Of a stretch of DNA of 64,000 nucleotides, positions 2,617-59,408 are shown piece by piece. The stretch is from Nitrospirota bacterium (GTDB lineage: Bacteria; Nitrospirota; Nitrospiria; Nitrospirales; Nitrospiraceae). Location of the stretch: positions 1 to 64,000 of the forward strand of contig JBFLWP010000004.1 of NCBI GenBank assembly GCA_040757595.1, read 5' to 3'. The notes under the pieces are model-generated. The model had not been told where the DNA came from, ran no database searches, and saw only the letters and a program-made list of their open reading frames with translations. A program made the position numbers and the translations under genes. Positions within the stretch are counted from its first letter, which is position 1, and each line of letters begins with the position of its first letter.

Positions 2617-7148
<4,532 letters not shown>

Positions 7149-9072: not shown

Positions 9073-9178
9073 ACGTGAACGGTGAGACGTGAGACGCAAA
9101 CGGCCGGCTGTCAGAAGTCCTGAGATGCGTTTCCGCATTTCCGGTTCACCGTTCACGTTTCACTCTTCACCTTTCACG
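9071..9178. repeat. Paired heptamer array with a perfect 15-bp inverted repeat
   Basis: AAACGTGAACGGTGA at 9071-9085 is exactly complementary to 9146-9160, with a 60-bp loop. Both arms continue as GTGANNN heptamers. It could form a hairpin between the AMMECR1 and DUF1015 genes; there is no U-tract, so it is not a standard intrinsic terminator. Confidence 0.8.
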
Positions 9179-9188
9179 AAAGTACGCA

Positions 9189-12290: not shown

Positions 12291-14837
12291 ATGGCGATAG
12301 ACCCAGTTTGCGGAATGACAGTCGAAGAGGAGAAGGCCGCCGCGACGTCGGTTTACAAGGGCACGACCTACTACTTCTGCGCCCCCGGCTGCAAACGGAC
12401 CTTCGAGGCAGGCCCGGACGCGATCCTCAAGAATGGCCCTCGCGGCATGCAGGCGCCCGCCCCCCAGATGGTCACGATCGGGAAAATCCAGAGGGCGGAG
12501 CCACGCGGCCCCCGTCCTGCTCCAAGCCCGACCGCGCAACCGGCGAAGGGCTTGCCCCAGCCCCCAGACGTTTCACGTCTCACGTCTGACGTCTCACGTC
12601 TCACGATTCCGATCGAGGGGATGTCTTGCGCCTCCTGCGTCGCCAAGATCGAGCAGGGGCTGGGCGGGATGGAGGGAATCGTCAAGGCCTCGGTGAACCT
12701 CGCGACCGAGCAGGCGACGGTCGAATACCTGCCGAACGTGACGAGCGTGGCGGCGATCCAGGAGACGATCCGCGGCCTGGGCTACACGCCGGTCCTGCCC
12801 GCCGGACCTTCGGCGAGCGAGCGGGAATCCCCCGCGACCAAGGAGGCCCGCGCGCGGGAGGCCTACCGGACGCTCACGATCCGCTTCTGGGCCTCGGCGG
12901 TCCTGACCCTGCCGATCATGGTCCTCGGCATGTCGGAGCACCTGGGTTTGCCGGTCGCCCGGACCGCCTCCTTCTGGCTCCAGCTCCTCCTGGCCACGCC
13001 GGTGCAGTTCTGGGCGGGCTGGCAGTTCTACCGCGGGGCCCTCGCGGTGGCCCGGCACGGCTCCTCCGACATGAACACGCTGATCGCCGTCGGAACCTCC
13101 GCGGCCTACGGCTACAGCGTCGCCGCCACCCTCGCCCCCGGGCTCTTCGCCGCCGGCGGCCTCGTGCCGGCCGTCTACTTCGACACCTCCGCCGCCATCG
13201 TCACGCTCATCCTCTTCGGCCGCGTGCTGGAGGCGAGGGCCAAAGGGCGGGCCTCGGAGGCCATCCGCAAGCTGGCCGGCCTCCAGCCCAGACAGGCGCG
13301 GGTCGTCCGGGAGGGGCACGAGCAGGACGTGCCGATCGAGGAGGTGCGCGTCGGCGACCTGGTCATCGTCCGTCCGGGCGAGCGGATTCCGGTGGACGGC
13401 CTGGTCCGCCAGGGAACGTCGGCGGTGGACGAATCCATGCTGACGGGCGAGAGCCTGCCGGTGGACAAGCAGCCGGGCGACCTCGTGATCGGCGCGACGC
13501 TCAATCGCGTCGGCGGCCTGAAGGTCGAGGCCACCAAGGTCGGCCGGGACACGGCGCTCGCGCAGATCATCCGCATCGTCGAGGAAGCCCAGGCCGCCAA
13601 GCCGCCGATCGCCAGGCTGGTGGACCGGATCGCCGCGGTCTTCGTGCCGGCCGTGATCCTGGTCGCCGGGCTCACGTTCGTCCTCTGGCTCGTCCTCGGC
13701 CCGGCGCCGGCCCTCACCCACGCGCTCGTCAACTTCGTCGCCGTCTTGATCATCGCCTGCCCCTGCGCCCTGGGTCTGGCCACCCCCACCTCGATCATGG
13801 TGGGCTTGGGCAGGGGCGCGGAGCTCGGCATCCTGCTCCGAGGCGGGGACGCGCTCGAGCTGGCCCACCGGCTCACGACGATCGTGCTGGACAAGACCGG
13901 CACGCTGACGAAGGGCGAGCCCTCCGTGGCCGCCGTGGTGCCGGTGGCGGACGGCTGGACCGTCGAGCGTCTCGTCGGCCTGGCCGCCTCGGCCGAGCGC
14001 AGCTCGGAGCACCCGGTCGGCGAGGCCATCGTCCGCCACGCCCGCCAGCAGGGAATTCCCGTGATGGACGCAGCCGAGTTCGCGGCGATCCCCGGCCACG
14101 GCATCCGGGCCAAGGTCGCCGCCCCCTCCGGGGCCCTCACCGTCTCGCTCGGCAACCTCCGGCTGATGGAAGTGGACGGAATCCAGGCGGGGCAGGACGC
14201 GACGAAGACGGCGGAGCAGCTCTCGAACGCGGGGCTCACCCCCATGTACCTGGCGGTGCGGGAGCCGGAGGCCAAGCTGGCGGGCATCCTGGCGGTCGCC
14301 GACACGCCCAAGGACCACGCGCAGGAGGCCGTGGAGGCCCTGCACCGGCTTGGCCTGGAGGTCATCATGCTGACCGGCGACAATCCCCGCACCGCCAGGG
14401 CGATCGCCGATCAGGTGAAGATCGACTGGGTTCTGGCCGAGGTCCTGCCCGAGCAGAAGGCGCGGGAGATCAAGAAGCTGCAGGAGCAAGGCAAGGTAGT
14501 CGCGATGGTGGGGGACGGGATCAACGACGCCCCGGCCCTCGCGCAGGCCGACGTCGGGATCGCGATCGGGACCGGCACGGACGTGGCCATGGAGGCGGCC
14601 GACGTGACCCTGGTCCGCGGGGACCTGCGGAACGTGGTCCTCGCCATCGCCCTGTCGCGGGCCACGACCAGGAACATCAAGCAGAACCTGTTTGCGGCCT
14701 TCATCTACAACGTGCTGCTGATCCCGGCCGCAGCCCTCGGCTACCTGAACCCGATCTGGGCGGCGGCGGCCATGAGCCTCTCCTCCGTCAGCGTCGTGGG
14801 GAACGCGTTGCGCCTGCGCCGGTTCCGCCTGCCGTGA
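12291..14837 (+). CDS. copA: Copper-type P1B ATPase with N-terminal YHS domain
   Basis: Inner-membrane pump for Cu(I)/heavy-metal export. The order is a YHS/TRASH metal-binding domain (residues 1-47, CGM and FCAPGC), a linker, an HMA domain with GMSCASC (CxxC at 113-116), membrane helices, the actuator domain (TGES), the intramembrane CPC at 490-492, the phosphorylation motif DKTGT from D534, and the hinge GDGINDAP. Length (848 aa) is full. Linker residues 93-105 ([13 protein letters not shown]) are encoded by GTGANNN heptamers (12567-12605), so the repeat has grown inside the gene without breaking the frame. Copper rather than another soft metal is inferred from CPC plus GMSCASC. Confidence 0.93.
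12567..12605. repeat. GTGANNN heptamer array inside copA
   Basis: On the minus strand the units read GTGAGAC, GTGAGAC, GTCAGAC, GTGAGAC, GTGAAAC. Three 7-bp units equal seven codons, which explains the seven-residue periodicity (DVSRLTS) in the encoded linker between the YHS and HMA domains. Confidence 0.85.
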
Positions 14838-15758: not shown

Positions 15759-16520
15759 TCATCCGGGGAGGGCGGGCCGGCGCTCGCGGGCCGCGAGCGT
15801 AATGAGGCCGGCCTCTGCGTCCTTCTGAACCTGAGCGTACCGATCCGGGGTTCCGACGTCCGACCAGTAGCCGCGCATGAGGAAGCTCCCGATGAGCTCC
15901 CCCAGCGCGAGCGAGCGGACGTAGGCGTCGATGATCGAGGACTCCTGCCCCGACGGCACGACGTCGAGCAGCCGCGGCTCCATCACGTGCACGCCGGCGA
16001 ACATGTGCGTGAAGCGGGGCCCGCCCGCTCCTGCATCCGCCCGCCCCCAGCCGTTGATCGAGCACACGCGCCCCGCTTGGTCCACCTCCACCGGCCCCCA
16101 GCGTCGGGCATCCGGGTCTTCCCGGAGGACCATCGTCGCCAGGGCGCCCCGCTCGCGATGGGCCCGCACGACCTCGCCCAGGTCCAGCTCCATCATGGTG
16201 TCCCCGTTGAGCACGAGGAAAGAGCCGCCGCCGAAAAAGGCCTCGGCCTGCTTGATCCCCCCGCCCGTGCCGAGGATCACCGCCTCGCGCGAGTAGGACA
16301 CGGACATGCCCCACTTCGACCCGTCTCCCAGCGTCTGCTCGATCAGGTACCCCAGATGGTGCAGGTTGACGATCACGTCCGTGATCCCGTGCTGACGCAG
16401 CAGCAGCAGGTTCCAGACGATCAGCGGGACGCCGGCGACGGGGAGCAGCGGCTTGGGAATCGTCTCGGTCAGCGGTCTCAGGCGGGTGCCGAGCCCCGCC
16501 GCCAAAATCATCGCCTTCAT
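15759..16520 (-). CDS. murU: Sugar-1-phosphate nucleotidyltransferase, probable N-acetylmuramate-1-P uridylyltransferase MurU
   Basis: The N-terminus carries the nucleotidyltransferase signature (LAAGLGTRLRPLT, then PKPLLPVAG) and a metal-binding LVLNGDT near residue 110. At 253 residues it lacks the left-handed helix domain of GlmU, as MurU and short mannose-1-P guanylyltransferases do. I favour MurU because the next cellular gene upstream on the same strand is amgK; in Pseudomonas the two act in recycling MurNAc to UDP-MurNAc. Here they are split by the restriction-modification island. No good promoter is seen directly upstream, so murU may have lost its original operon promoter. Mannose-1-P guanylyltransferase remains the alternative. 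Confidence 0.75.
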   Translation of the reverse strand: MKAMILAAGLGTRLRPLTETIPKPLLPVAGVPLIVWNLLLLRQHGITDVIVNLHHLGYLIEQTLGDGSKWGMSVSYSREAVILGTGGGIKQAEAFFGGGSFLVLNGDTMMELDLGEVVRAHRERGALATMVLREDPDARRWGPVEVDQAGRVCSINGWGRADAGAGGPRFTHMFAGVHVMEPRLLDVVPSGQESSIIDAYVRSLALGELIGSFLMRGYWSDVGTPDRYAQVQKDAEAGLITLAARERRPALPG

Positions 16521-16564
16521 TTTAGGGCTCGATACCCCTTAAGAATTCGCATTCTTGCCAATTT

Positions 16565-16594
16565 CGTGGAAGCAAACGTGGAAGATGCTATAAT
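16565..16594 (+). promoter_or_regulatory. Promoter region of the endonuclease gene
   Basis: A consensus -10 TATAAT (16589-16594) precedes the endonuclease ATG by 23 bp, with GGAG as ribosome binding site. There is no good -35; instead CGTGGAAG occurs twice (16565-16572 and 16577-16584) with a 12-bp period, as expected for a regulator-bound site. Confidence 0.5.
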
Positions 16595-16617
16595 CCGTCC
16601 CCCTCGGAGTTCTCACT

Positions 16618-17514
16618 ATGCCCGCGCGCACGAATTCAACCCTAGACAGACTATCTCAGGACTACGAAGCACTCAAAGACCAGACAGGGCGCGATGCAAA
16701 GTCTGTCGCCGTGGCCGATAACTTGAAGCGGTTGACTGAAACCTCTCTCAACTTCTTATCTTCCTCGTGCGTGAAGGTTCCCCTAACCTCGCGAGTGTAT
16801 GGCAAGCACTATTACTCCTTTGCCAGAAAGGGGAAGGGGACCAAGCACCTATCAAGGGCGGTAAACGAGCAACTCTTCATCCCAAACTGTCGGGAGCAAC
16901 TCAAACATCTCCTTGAAGGCACATTGGCGACCCTGCCCTTCCAGACCAGAGCTCGCCTCCTCTACACAGTTGCCATGTCTTACTGCTGTGCCGCGGACCT
17001 TCTGAAGACACGGGATCAAAAAACTCCGGCAACTTTTTTCGAGTGTCTGGTTGGGCACCTCTTTGCGCGAACCCTTGATGTCAATCCACGCACGCAGGTC
17101 GAAGTTCTCCGCCTAGAAGAGGAAGCCGGGACCCTACCCACTGATTTCATCTTCGATCTCGGCTCAGGAAGACCAAAGTTCCATGTTCCTGTAAAGACCT
17201 CGACCAGGGAGCGAGTGATCCAGGTTTTTGCCCATCAAAGGGTTCTCGATGGTGTTCATGGTTTTGGAAAGTTTAGAGGCATCCTAGTTTGCTTGACAGA
17301 AACAAAGCTAGATCACAAGTCGCGCGAGGTGATTGAGATCTGTGTGCCGAAACAATGGAATCTCTATCAACGGTTTATTGCTCCCATGCACCGGTTTTAC
17401 TACTTTGACATTCCGCAGAAATACGCCGACCTCTCCACTGGTGATCCTCCAATGGCAGTGGTCCCATTTGCGAAGTTCTTCGATGAGGCAGCAGATCTGG
17501 CTATCGGGAAGTAG
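16618..17514 (+). CDS. Type II restriction endonuclease (PD-(D/E)xK-like)
   Basis: 298 residues, visibly lower in GC than the flanking genes. The likely nuclease core is residues 174-195: acidic residues D176 and D180 on one strand (LPTDFIFDLG) followed by VPVKTSTRER with K193, a pattern known from type II endonucleases (PD-(D/E)xK with KTSTRER). It converges tail to tail on the HTH-methyltransferase gene and overlaps its last 14 bp. The pair is a compact restriction-modification system inserted between amgK and murU. The recognition sequence cannot be derived. A promoter with TATAAT lies just upstream. Confidence 0.75.
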   Translation: MPARTNSTLDRLSQDYEALKDQTGRDAKSVAVADNLKRLTETSLNFLSSSCVKVPLTSRVYGKHYYSFARKGKGTKHLSRAVNEQLFIPNCREQLKHLLEGTLATLPFQTRARLLYTVAMSYCCAADLLKTRDQKTPATFFECLVGHLFARTLDVNPRTQVEVLRLEEEAGTLPTDFIFDLGSGRPKFHVPVKTSTRERVIQVFAHQRVLDGVHGFGKFRGILVCLTETKLDHKSREVIEICVPKQWNLYQRFIAPMHRFYYFDIPQKYADLSTGDPPMAVVPFAKFFDEAADLAIGK

Positions 17515-18562
17515 GTGGCTTCGGTCCCATCCATCGTGTTTTGCCATCTGACTTGCGGAAAACGAGAAAGTAGGAGTGATTCTTACGGGCGTGGATTTGC
17601 TTGAGAATTCTGCTGACCCCAGGACGGTTATTCCGAAGAAGGACAAACAGATCCTCAACGATAAACCCTTTGCGCGTATATTCGTTAATTAACTCTACAT
17701 GGGTCAGGCGTTGTTGATTCGCACAAACCTCGTCGGCACATTTCACAATAAAGATACCTTCGTCCCTCAAGACCCGGTGAGCTTCGGCGCCGGCGGCGAA
17801 ATACAGATCGAGCACTGCCTCATGGTATTTTCTTCCTGAGCCGTTCCTTGCCACATTGTTCTTGTAGTAGCCCTCGTAGTTTTGATGTCCCACATGGGCC
17901 GTGCCCCCGGGTGTATGCATGTAGGGCGGATCAAGGACGACACAGTCAATGGACCTATCCGTGTAGGGCAATGAGCGACAGTCAACGCCCTCTTCAATAT
18001 CGGTAGCCAAAAGCTTGTAGGACTCTTTGGGAATCCTCTTCCAGAAAACGCCCTTTCCGTACGTCACGTCCGCTACCGTACTTCCTGGGGATACATAGAG
18101 GGAGAGAACCCGTGGGAAAAGCTCGTCGTTGCTTCCGCAGGACGAACTAAAAACAAGATCGTTGGTCGAAACACCGTCAGGTGACTTGCGCTTTGGACGC
18201 CCAGCAGGAGCGGTTTCATCTGTAGCATCCGGCAAGTCACCATCAACAGAAAGAGAGCGCGCCATCTTGCCGAGCGTCCGATATTTGCCTAACGATTCCT
18301 GAATTAAGAGAGCGGACTTTTGAGGCTTTTTCTTGATCGCGGTTCGCCATGCAGGCGGTATTCGATCCGTAAGGATCATGAGCTCGGCTTCGTCACAGTC
18401 AAGGGCCTTTGAGAGTTTGTGAAGGACTTGTTCGGAAGGTTGGACTTGTCCTGATTCGATCCTTGAGAGGTAGGCATGGTCAACCTTGACCTTCTTTGCC
18501 AAGGTCTTTATCCCCAACTCCTTTCCTTTCCGAAGTTGCCGAAGGCGGCCCCCCAAATTCAT
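17501..18562 (-). CDS. DNA methyltransferase fused to an N-terminal XRE-type HTH (restriction-modification)
   Basis: Residues 5-62 form a Cro/C1-type helix-turn-helix (LAKKVKVDHAYLSRIESG). A basic GRPKRK at 121-126 resembles an AT-hook. Residues ~140-340 are an amino-methyltransferase with motif I ADVTYGKG (164-171), D188, and the catalytic DPPY at 211-214, so it modifies adenine-N6 or cytosine-N4. It should protect host DNA from the neighbouring endonuclease. The fused HTH probably autoregulates, as described for methyltransferases such as M.SsoII: a palindrome TGACAA-AC-TTGTCA sits over its own -35. The promoter places the transcript start on the A of the ATG (18562), so the message may be leaderless. 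Confidence 0.85.
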   Translation of the reverse strand: MNLGGRLRQLRKGKELGIKTLAKKVKVDHAYLSRIESGQVQPSEQVLHKLSKALDCDEAELMILTDRIPPAWRTAIKKKPQKSALLIQESLGKYRTLGKMARSLSVDGDLPDATDETAPAGRPKRKSPDGVSTNDLVFSSSCGSNDELFPRVLSLYVSPGSTVADVTYGKGVFWKRIPKESYKLLATDIEEGVDCRSLPYTDRSIDCVVLDPPYMHTPGGTAHVGHQNYEGYYKNNVARNGSGRKYHEAVLDLYFAAGAEAHRVLRDEGIFIVKCADEVCANQQRLTHVELINEYTRKGFIVEDLFVLLRNNRPGVSRILKQIHARKNHSYFLVFRKSDGKTRWMGPKPPTSR

Positions 18563-18568
18563 GCCGGC

Positions 18569-18597
18569 ATTCTATGAAAGGGTGACAAACTTGTCAA
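18569..18597 (-). promoter_or_regulatory. Promoter and palindromic operator of the HTH-methyltransferase gene
   Basis: On the minus strand TTGACA (18592-18597), 17-bp spacer, TAGAAT (18569-18574). The perfect inverted repeat TGACAA/TTGTCA at 18583-18596 overlaps the -35 box by five bases, an ideal place for repression by the encoded HTH domain. The start codon lies 7 bp beyond the -10, so little or no leader is expected. Confidence 0.75.
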
Positions 18598-18728
18598 CCC
18601 TAAAGTCGGACCAGGGGGACCAGCACGTTGATTTCCGGCTTCCCAAACGCATTGCACGCCCTTGGAGGCGTTGAAAGGCCATCCTAAATGTCAAGCCAGA
18701 CATCCGTGACCACGACGAACACCCTCCG

Positions 18729-18862
18729 GGATGTTCAAAGCGGCCGCCCAACAGCACCCGCCAGGCGGGTACCCGGCGAGCGAAAGCCCGAGGCGTACTT
18801 CTTGCTGTACGTTGAGGGTTTGAGCGATGCGAGAATGCAGGCGGAGGCCTTTTTCAACATCC
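18729..18862. repeat. Short interspersed repeat (REP/MITE-like) with GGATGTT terminal inverted repeats
   Basis: A ~134-bp element begins GGATGTTCAAAG and ends CTTTTTCAACATCC, so its ends are inverted copies of GGATGTT plus A-rich flanks. Internally it carries a CGCCAGGCGGGT block and GTACGTTGAGGGTTTGAGCG. From memory, sequences of this kind are common between genes in Nitrospira genomes. It abuts the stop codon of amgK and has no coding capacity. It fills most of the ~300-bp gap between the methyltransferase promoter and amgK. Confidence 0.65.
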
Positions 18863-18864
18863 TG

Positions 18865-22348: not shown

Positions 22349-22448
22349 GTGAAAGGTGAGAGGTGAACCGTGCAACGAAGGAGAACGAAGGCCATGAAGA
22401 GCATACACCACCCTTCACGTCTCACGTCTCACGCCTCACGTCTCACGA
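22349..22448. repeat. Paired GTGANNN heptamer array between GH57 and galT-like genes
   Basis: The first arm reads GTGAAAG, GTGAGAG, GTGAACC on the plus strand. The second (22413-22448) reads GTGAGAC, GTGAGGC, GTGAGAC, GTGAGAC, GTGAAGG on the minus strand. It ends just before the ribosome binding site of the next gene. Confidence 0.75.
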
Positions 22449-58078: not shown

Positions 58079-58612
58079 TTAGCCGGTCACGTCGTTCCGA
58101 TCCGCGTTCTGGAGATTCTGCTTGATGTCGTTGACGTACCACCGATCCAGCGTGGGGTCATTGTCCAGGTTGGCCCAGGCTGCCGATGTAAAGCCGACCG
58201 TGGTCGTGCTCGCGCCGGCCACGGCACCCACCGTGCTGCCGGGATCGTCGCCCGGATCGGGAATCCCGGTCCCGACGAAGATGCAGCTCGTGGTCAGGTT
58301 GGTCGCTGCGCAGGAGGTCGGTGCGGCAGCGTTTCCGCCGTTCGGTGCAGCGGAGTACTTGTACCGGTTGCTGGTCCCGGCCAGGGCGAATCCGATCTCC
58401 TGGAAGCTCCCGAATCGGGACTGCTCGCCGAAATAGGAGGTTTCGGCGACGAAGATGCCGCCCAGGTTCGTCTTGGCCTCAGCCTGACGGGACTGAGCCT
58501 GGTACCTCAAGAAGTTGGGAATCGCGATGGCGGCCAGAATGCCGATGATCGCCACCACGATCATCAACTCGATGAGGGTGAAACCCTTTTGACTGCGCAA
58601 TGACTTCAACAT
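58079..58612 (-). CDS. pilA: Type IV pilin / pseudopilin
   Basis: 177 residues. Class III signal: short basic leader MLKSLRSQKG with Gly10 at -1, then FTLIELMIVV and E5 of the mature protein. A ~20-residue hydrophobic stalk follows, then a soluble globular domain with a C101/C110 pair and acidic, Asn-rich C-terminus (YVNDIKQNLQNADRNDV). Ribosome binding site GGAGG is 10 bp before ATG 58612. A GG-N10-GC element with sigma-54 resemblance lies at 58737-58752. It is a paralogue of the next gene. Confidence 0.92.
   Translation of the reverse strand: MLKSLRSQKGFTLIELMIVVAIIGILAAIAIPNFLRYQAQSRQAEAKTNLGGIFVAETSYFGEQSRFGSFQEIGFALAGTSNRYKYSAAPNGGNAAAPTSCAATNLTTSCIFVGTGIPDPGDDPGSTVGAVAGASTTTVGFTSAAWANLDNDPTLDRWYVNDIKQNLQNADRNDVTG
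58524..58579. repeat. 56-bp identity between the two pilin genes (first copy)
   Basis: This stretch, coding for the hydrophobic stalk, is identical to 59320-59375 in the other pilin gene. Identity at synonymous sites suggests a recent duplication or gene conversion. Confidence 0.85.
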
Positions 58613-58889: not shown

Positions 58890-59408
58890 CTAAAATGCCA
58901 CGTCATCCTGGTCCGCCGCGGCGAGCCCCTGCTTGAGGTCGTTGACGTGCCATTGATCGACCGTCGCATCGGTGTCCAGGTTGCCGGCGGCGGTCGCCGT
59001 GAAGCCCGGCGGTGACAGCGATCCCATCGCGACGAGCCCGGCGGTTCCCTGTCCGTCGGCGGCCGAGGTACCGATCCCGGACAAGATGCAGGAGGATGTG
59101 GTGGCTCCCCCACAGGAGGCCCCGGAGTTCCCCCCGTCGCCCGGGCTGCGGTAGGTATAGCGATTGGACGCGGCCGCCAAGGCGAAGCCCACTTCCCCGA
59201 AGCTGCCGAAGCGCGAGTTGGCTCCGTAGTAGGACAGTTCGGCGGCGAAGATGCCGCCCAGATTCGTCTTGGCTTCCGCCTGTCTGGATTGGACCTGCCA
59301 CCTCAAGTATTGCGGAACGGCGATGGCGGCCAGAATGCCGATGATCGCCACCACGATCATCAACTCGATGAGGGTAAAGGCTTCTTGCTCGCGCAGACGA
59401 TTTCGCAT
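58890..59408 (-). CDS. Type IV pilin / pseudopilin with Ala at the cleavage site
   Basis: 172 residues. Leader MRNRLREQEA then FTLIELMIVV. The residue before the cleavage point is Ala, not the usual Gly, though E5 is kept. The stalk is identical at DNA level to that of the neighbouring pilin (59320-59375). The globular domain has two cysteine pairs (SCGG, SSCIL) and the C-terminus HVNDLKQGLAAADQDDV resembles its paralogue. ATG 59408 is preceded by GAGG. Confidence 0.88.
   Translation of the reverse strand: MRNRLREQEAFTLIELMIVVAIIGILAAIAVPQYLRWQVQSRQAEAKTNLGGIFAAELSYYGANSRFGSFGEVGFALAAASNRYTYRSPGDGGNSGASCGGATTSSCILSGIGTSAADGQGTAGLVAMGSLSPPGFTATAAGNLDTDATVDQWHVNDLKQGLAAADQDDVAF

Follow-up and report, generated by a model that had tools for sequence, protein, structure and literature searches.

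A restriction-modification module with a putatively self-repressing methyltransferase between the amgK-like and murU-like genes of a Nitrospirota bacterium

The window analyzed here is a 64-kb stretch (positions 1-64000 of a 265-kb contig) from a Nitrospirota genome of 3.37 Mb. Within it, an amgK-like sugar kinase gene and a murU-like nucleotidyltransferase gene, two putative cell-wall recycling genes on the minus strand, lie 2,344 nt apart, and the space between them holds an endonuclease gene and a methyltransferase gene that are oriented tail to tail, the former on the plus and the latter on the minus strand, with an overlap of 14 nt (Table 1). We refer to the flanking genes as "-like", rather than as certified orthologs, because their NCBIfam scores fall under the curated cutoffs. 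The composition of the block is foreign: the GC content of 16521-18562 is 0.513, as opposed to 0.666 ± 0.022 in stretches of the same length elsewhere (z = -7.1), the lowest of which reaches 0.604, and GC3 is 0.56-0.58 in the island compared to 0.90 in the flanking genes. A previous sequence-only reading had described a convergent, AT-richer endonuclease/methyltransferase pair separating same-strand amgK and murU by about 2.3 kb, and the genes, their orientations, the distance and the deviating GC content are all confirmed. It had also called the pair self-promoted, which is accurate for the methyltransferase, whose TTGACA-17-TAGAAT promoter matches the consensus at 11 of 12 positions, and plausible for the endonuclease, where an extended -10 element (TGCTATAAT, 16586-16594) and a GGAG (16606-16609) precede the ATG and no -35 element was scored. 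There is no separate C-protein gene, i.e., no small helix-turn-helix (HTH) ORF adjoins the pair, the HTH being fused to the methyltransferase.

Table 1. Features of the locus and of the loci compared with it. Positions without an L number are those of the window.
Feature	Position	Strand	Evidence or remark
murU-like nucleotidyltransferase	15759-16520	-	PF00483 E 5.9e-37; NF045761 186 bits (cutoff 250)
murU-endonuclease spacer	16521-16617		GC 0.47
Kpn2I-like type II restriction endonuclease, 298 aa	16618-17514	+	PADLOC, phmmer, Foldseek
XRE-HTH::amino-methyltransferase fusion, 353 aa	17501-18562	-	HTH_31 1.6e-12; N6_N4_Mtase 2.3e-7
Methyltransferase core, residues ~121-353	17504-18202	-	motif I then motif IV
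N-terminal XRE helix-turn-helix, residues 1-65	18368-18562	-	Pfam above cutoff
Spacer, methyltransferase start to palindromic element	18563-18721		GC 0.54
Methyltransferase promoter	18569-18597	-	TTGACA-17-TAGAAT
Proposed operator GGGTTGACAAGTTTGTCAC	18582-18600	-	dyad across -35 box
Palindromic interspersed element CAGGATGTTGAAAAAGGCC...GGCCGCTTTGAACATCCCG	~18720-18864	-	native; directly after amgK TAG stop
amgK-like sugar kinase	18865 to ~19962	-	PF01636 6e-29; NF045759 182 bits (cutoff 550)
LexA-methyltransferase fusion, 440 aa	L097:5373-6692	-	Omnitrophota
LexA fusion	L158:3098-4990		
LexA fusion	L159:4451-6352		
LexA fusion	L160:3892-5754		
LexA fusion	L161:566-2428		
LexA fusion	L162:3442-5238		
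LexA fusion	L163:3417-4937		
LexA fusion	L164:4339-5868		
LexA fusion	L165:1086-2615		
LexA fusion	L183:2416-4104		
LexA fusion	L184:2-1243		
LexA fusion	L185:1538-3004		
LexA fusion	L186:2345-3940		
LexA fusion	L187:2774-4636		
CGAAA-N6-CGAAA upstream of LexA fusion	L097:6731-6746		
CGAAA-N6-CGAAA upstream of LexA fusion	L158:5014-5029		
CGAAA-N6-CGAAA upstream of LexA fusion	L161 at 549	-	
Separate small HTH gene beside restriction-modification genes	L099:4740-4946	+	
Separate small HTH gene beside restriction-modification genes	L109:1656-1883	-	

No Pfam or NCBIfam model matches the endonuclease. It is recognized by the PADLOC REase_II model (7e-28), and phmmer aligns its residues 86-275 with Kpn2I (6ekr; 1.4e-28), which is also the best and only strong Foldseek match of the structural model (pLDDT 89.5; E 9.4e-17, TM 0.77). 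The core residues T175-D176 and P191-V192-K193...R197-E198-R199 are conserved, with D176, P191, V192, K193, R197, E198 and R199 being invariant among 12 aligned sequences. Sequence homology, fold, and the conserved acid with PVK...RER place the protein among the Kpn2I-like type IIP enzymes, akin in both sequence and fold to the endonuclease of the Kpn2I system of Klebsiella pneumoniae RFL2. As in our locus, the endonuclease and methyltransferase genes of plasmid-borne Kpn2I-like systems are convergent with overlapping ends; however, the adjoining methyltransferases in those systems are annotated as cytosine enzymes, whereas the one described here is an amino-methyltransferase. The hexamer TCCGGA occurs 34 times in the window, with 39 occurrences expected, and is absent inside the island; the lack of avoidance neither supports nor excludes a presumed Kpn2I specificity. 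For TCGCGA, 44 occurrences were counted and 45 expected, again with no avoidance signal.

The methyltransferase (METHYLTRANSFERASE) combines an XRE-type HTH with an amino-methyltransferase domain. HTH_31, HTH_3 and HTH_26 all score above the Pfam cutoff on the N-terminal residues 1-65, and the structural model of this domain is of good quality (pLDDT ~90 over residues 1-60). The methyltransferase core shares 51% identity with the enzyme encoded on plasmid pSB13 (E 6e-66), which we take to be the Sbo13I plasmid, the gene presumably being sbo13IM. The pSB13 enzyme (L109) differs in having no N-terminal HTH; on this plasmid, an HTH is encoded by a gene of its own, and the partner ORF is not the same. 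In the aligned core, motif I (ADVTYGKGVFW) precedes motif IV (DPPY), and the predicted protein fits the M.NruI/M.Sbo13I subgroup of gamma amino-methyltransferases, in which motif I is located ahead of the DPPY motif IV; the two members characterized probably differ in their target base, A for one and C for the other (PMC2890505). The structural model of the methyltransferase (mean pLDDT 69.8), poor in the core, is too weak for fine structural claims; its Foldseek matches are generic Rossmann methyltransferases. A solitary or decayed system, in which either gene has lost its activity, appears quite improbable, given that both frames are full length and the family-invariant core residues are intact.

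A relative of murU was found in all 100 genomes searched and amgK was matched in 93 of them. In 88 of the 89 relatives for which both genes were listed (four families, none of the host genus), the 2 genes are adjacent on one strand, separated by 2-167 nt (median 84); in the sole exception, a contig break separates the two genes, and an amgK end is located 70 nt from murU on one of the two contigs. The endonuclease is present in only 2 of 175 family genomes, namely, the present one and a member of another genus (70% identity), in which neither amgK nor murU lies within the 16 kb fetched around the gene. Given the adjacency of the pair in relatives and the rarity of the endonuclease, the most economical explanation by a wide margin is horizontal gain. 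The comparison supports a lineage-specific insertion, with a restriction-modification module interrupting a conserved pair of genes as the sequence-only reading had proposed. That reading would have been contradicted by an island common to all relatives or by amgK and murU never being adjacent, and neither situation was encountered. The alternative, an ancestral island between amgK and murU that every other lineage has lost, seems to us extremely improbable. Such a scenario would demand dozens of parallel losses across the four families in which the pair is adjacent and sits poorly with the single other occurrence of the endonuclease, amid different neighbors, and with GC and GC3 values far from those of the host; in its favor, one could point out that a same-genus genome, by which the event could be dated, is absent from the comparison set. 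The locus illustrates clearly how such a module can come to lie within a conserved pair of genes.

The description of the insertion as clean is, by contrast, unproven: no convincing direct repeat (only short chance matches) flanks the borders of the block, the island ORFs include no integrase, transposase or other mobility gene, and the relatives, none of them of the same genus, provide no closely matching empty site that could be aligned, their intergenic sequences being entirely dissimilar. That the module is selfish, as was also stated, may reasonably be supposed. The convergent pair is maintained in Nitrospirota, Elusimicrobiota and Myxococcota, with endonuclease identities of 68-73% where the gene is complete, and the plasmid relatives are distant (~31% identity for the endonuclease and ~51% for the methyltransferase core). 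In one relative (L104), the endonuclease gene of an otherwise complete locus contains a run of N at 5284-5400. A phage origin of the island was considered and rejected, with no DNA match to it in 50,697 phage records.

The short interspersed repeat previously noted on the amgK side, and taken there to mark the island, is real but native. The element is palindromic (fold z -3.2) and starts directly at the amgK TAG stop. The genome contains 13 matches to it (the window copy and 12 others, L032-L043), several of which likewise begin directly after a TAG. As a border of the island, it was rejected on account of its copies in 36 of the 41 genomes searched, the highest number in one genome being at least 21. 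The amgK-side border is instead located in or at the edge of the spacer 18563-18721. In 17 relatives, different hairpins, unrelated in sequence, occupy this slot between amgK and murU (z ≤ -2 in 13 of the 17), and the two spacers flanking the module form no stable fold (z 0.1, and -0.1 for the murU-endonuclease spacer). Considering the native repeat, the hairpins in the slot of relatives and the unfolded spacers, the most likely point of entry of the module is between murU and the native hairpin. Since the palindromic element directly adjoins the block of low GC and is one of a family of dispersed repeats, one might regard it as part of the mobile unit, or suppose that the module arrived through insertion or recombination of the element. 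This is unlikely: no module lies beside any of the twelve other genome copies within the flanking stretches read, most relatives hold some other hairpin in the same post-amgK slot, and at the other four loci with an HTH-methyltransferase the promoter is shared but the upstream stretch that was read lacks a repeat of this kind.

We note several further repeats. The palindromic element is REP-like and dispersed through the whole family. The hairpins between amgK and murU in relatives (L077-L095) are alike in position and shape and completely different in sequence from species to species, many of them being made of repeated short words, e.g., GTGAGGC or TTCACGT. Seven-base word repeats of the TTCACGT/CTCACGT kind also occur in the window at 2578-2612, 9145-9179, 12558-12606 and 22400-22448, at least some of them outside genes, and two direct 245-nt copies (58355-58599 and 59151-59395), 77% alike, are situated 796 nt apart.

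The promoter of the methyltransferase gene provides a clue to how the module may be controlled. Its -10 element ends 6 nt before the ATG, so that the transcript is likely leaderless, and the proposed operator recurs upstream of all five HTH-methyltransferases, from three phyla, in DNA that is otherwise little conserved. The half-sites covary in most of the five loci (TGACTA..TAGTCA, TGACAA..TTGTCA), and in five whole genomes GGGTTGACWANNNWGTCAM occurs exactly once per genome, always just upstream of the methyltransferase gene. Conservation of the -35 box alone could account for part of the motif, but the dyad and the GGG reach beyond it. The methyltransferase most likely acts as its own repressor, by way of its N-terminal HTH and the predicted operator in its promoter, a mechanism that the sequence supports well; the earlier reading had overlooked the fusion of the enzyme to this putative repressor domain and the accompanying operator. 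Alternatively, the HTH might target the enzyme to sites or act on other genes, the motif being only a strong promoter, as would be compatible with the consensus -35 box that it contains. We consider this unlikely in view of the dyad maintained beyond the -35 box, the paired half-site changes in most loci and the single occurrence of the motif per genome, solely at the methyltransferase gene.

To our knowledge, the HTH-autorepressing methyltransferases studied thus far produce 5-methylcytosine, and each has its own operator. Autorepression by the N-terminal HTH of a methyltransferase has been established in other systems, including Ecl18kI, and the Ecl18kI-type autorepressors share with the protein described here both the N-terminal HTH and an operator over the methyltransferase promoter (PMC3874152). 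Unlike in those systems, the HTH is here joined to an amino-methyltransferase and the operator is a different one, shared across phyla. The Kpn2I system meets the same control problem by a separate C protein that, bound within its own gene, serves as a roadblock to elongation (PMC6237814), whereas here the regulator is fused to the methyltransferase. The mechanism of autorepression is hence already known, and in the present case would operate on a methyltransferase of the M.NruI/M.Sbo13I type.

Collectively, we find it probable that the island is a mobile type II pair with a self-repressing methyltransferase, inserted between the post-amgK hairpin slot and the start of murU. Upon entry into an unmodified cell, the methyltransferase would be made at once from its strong leaderless promoter. 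As the protein accumulates, its HTH domain would bind the dyad over the -35 box and close its own promoter, and the endonuclease would be made from a separate, weaker-looking promoter. The presumed outcome would be protection first, with methylation then held at a ceiling.

The regulator is not the same in all relatives of the system. In an Omnitrophota locus (L097), a methyltransferase core of the window's type, convergent with a Kpn2I-like endonuclease, carries at its N-terminus a complete LexA, the cellular sensor of DNA damage, where the window protein has its XRE domain (TIGR00498, 197 bits versus a cutoff of 111; IAAG, KGDSM and EATLKK present), i.e., both the DNA-binding part and the S24 autoprotease, and the predicted operator differs as well, being a direct repeat. 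In the tree of methyltransferase cores, L097 nests inside the XRE-bearing clade beside L096 (88/82), with the XRE group falling on one side in 5% of the bootstraps; the regulator has therefore probably been exchanged. Other, partly unrelated methyltransferases of Omnitrophota, Elusimicrobiota and Nitrospirota (L158-L165 and L183-L187) likewise start with a LexA domain of the L097 type, and the methyltransferases fused to LexA include two-motif N6_N4, single-domain N6_N4 and D12-class enzymes, besides the type found in the window. Their neighbors, convergent and mostly overlapping except for the deviating layout of L183, are endonucleases from families unrelated to one another, namely, MvaI/BcnI, BsaWI (beside an MvaI/BcnI gene), Tsp45I, TaqI and Kpn2I-like, and the partners in L163 and L185 match no known family. 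Searches with the LexA-methyltransferase query yielded no relative on viral contigs and no full-length relative on plasmids, and we found no report of natural fusions of this kind in the open-access literature.

The Ala-Ala-Gly cleavage site of LexA is present in 15 of 15 related fusions, and simple Ser and Lys patterns match most of them, the pattern being too strict to call several. CGAAA-N6-CGAAA is located directly upstream of the fusion in all nine Omnitrophota contig stretches, against an expectation of 0.013 per stretch, and in none of five stretches with a stand-alone lexA. In 8 of 10 genomes, a stricter version of the motif is present in a single copy, always at the fusion. For the fusion loci of Elusimicrobiota and Nitrospirota (n = 5), an exact copy lies nearby in 2 and not in 3. 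The once-per-genome occurrence thus suggests that, in Omnitrophota, the module has a private operator, the picture being less clear outside this phylum. Cleavage of LexA is RecA-assisted, and given this general property and the intact autoprotease, the fusions may respond to DNA damage.

We therefore tentatively propose, as a possibility that we rate somewhat below an even chance, a set of exchangeable repressor-methyltransferase fusions with private operators, in which the LexA branch would sense damage by its own endonuclease via RecA and the XRE form would be a sister design without the sensor. In the LexA branch, breaks introduced by the endonuclease at unmethylated sites of host DNA would activate RecA, the LexA part would then be cleaved and the methyltransferase derepressed, and protection would be restored in a damage-sensing feedback. 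Should the LexA version indeed be damage responsive, it would bear on how a restriction system spares its host when methylation lags, and this exchange of regulators, above all for LexA, matters more than the locus alone. The regulator welded to the methyltransferase appears exchangeable, being XRE in the window and LexA in L097, with a separate HTH gene elsewhere, and the LexA domain is joined to several kinds of methyltransferases in systems with different endonucleases. Separate small HTH genes beside restriction-modification genes were observed in L099 and L109 (Table 1).
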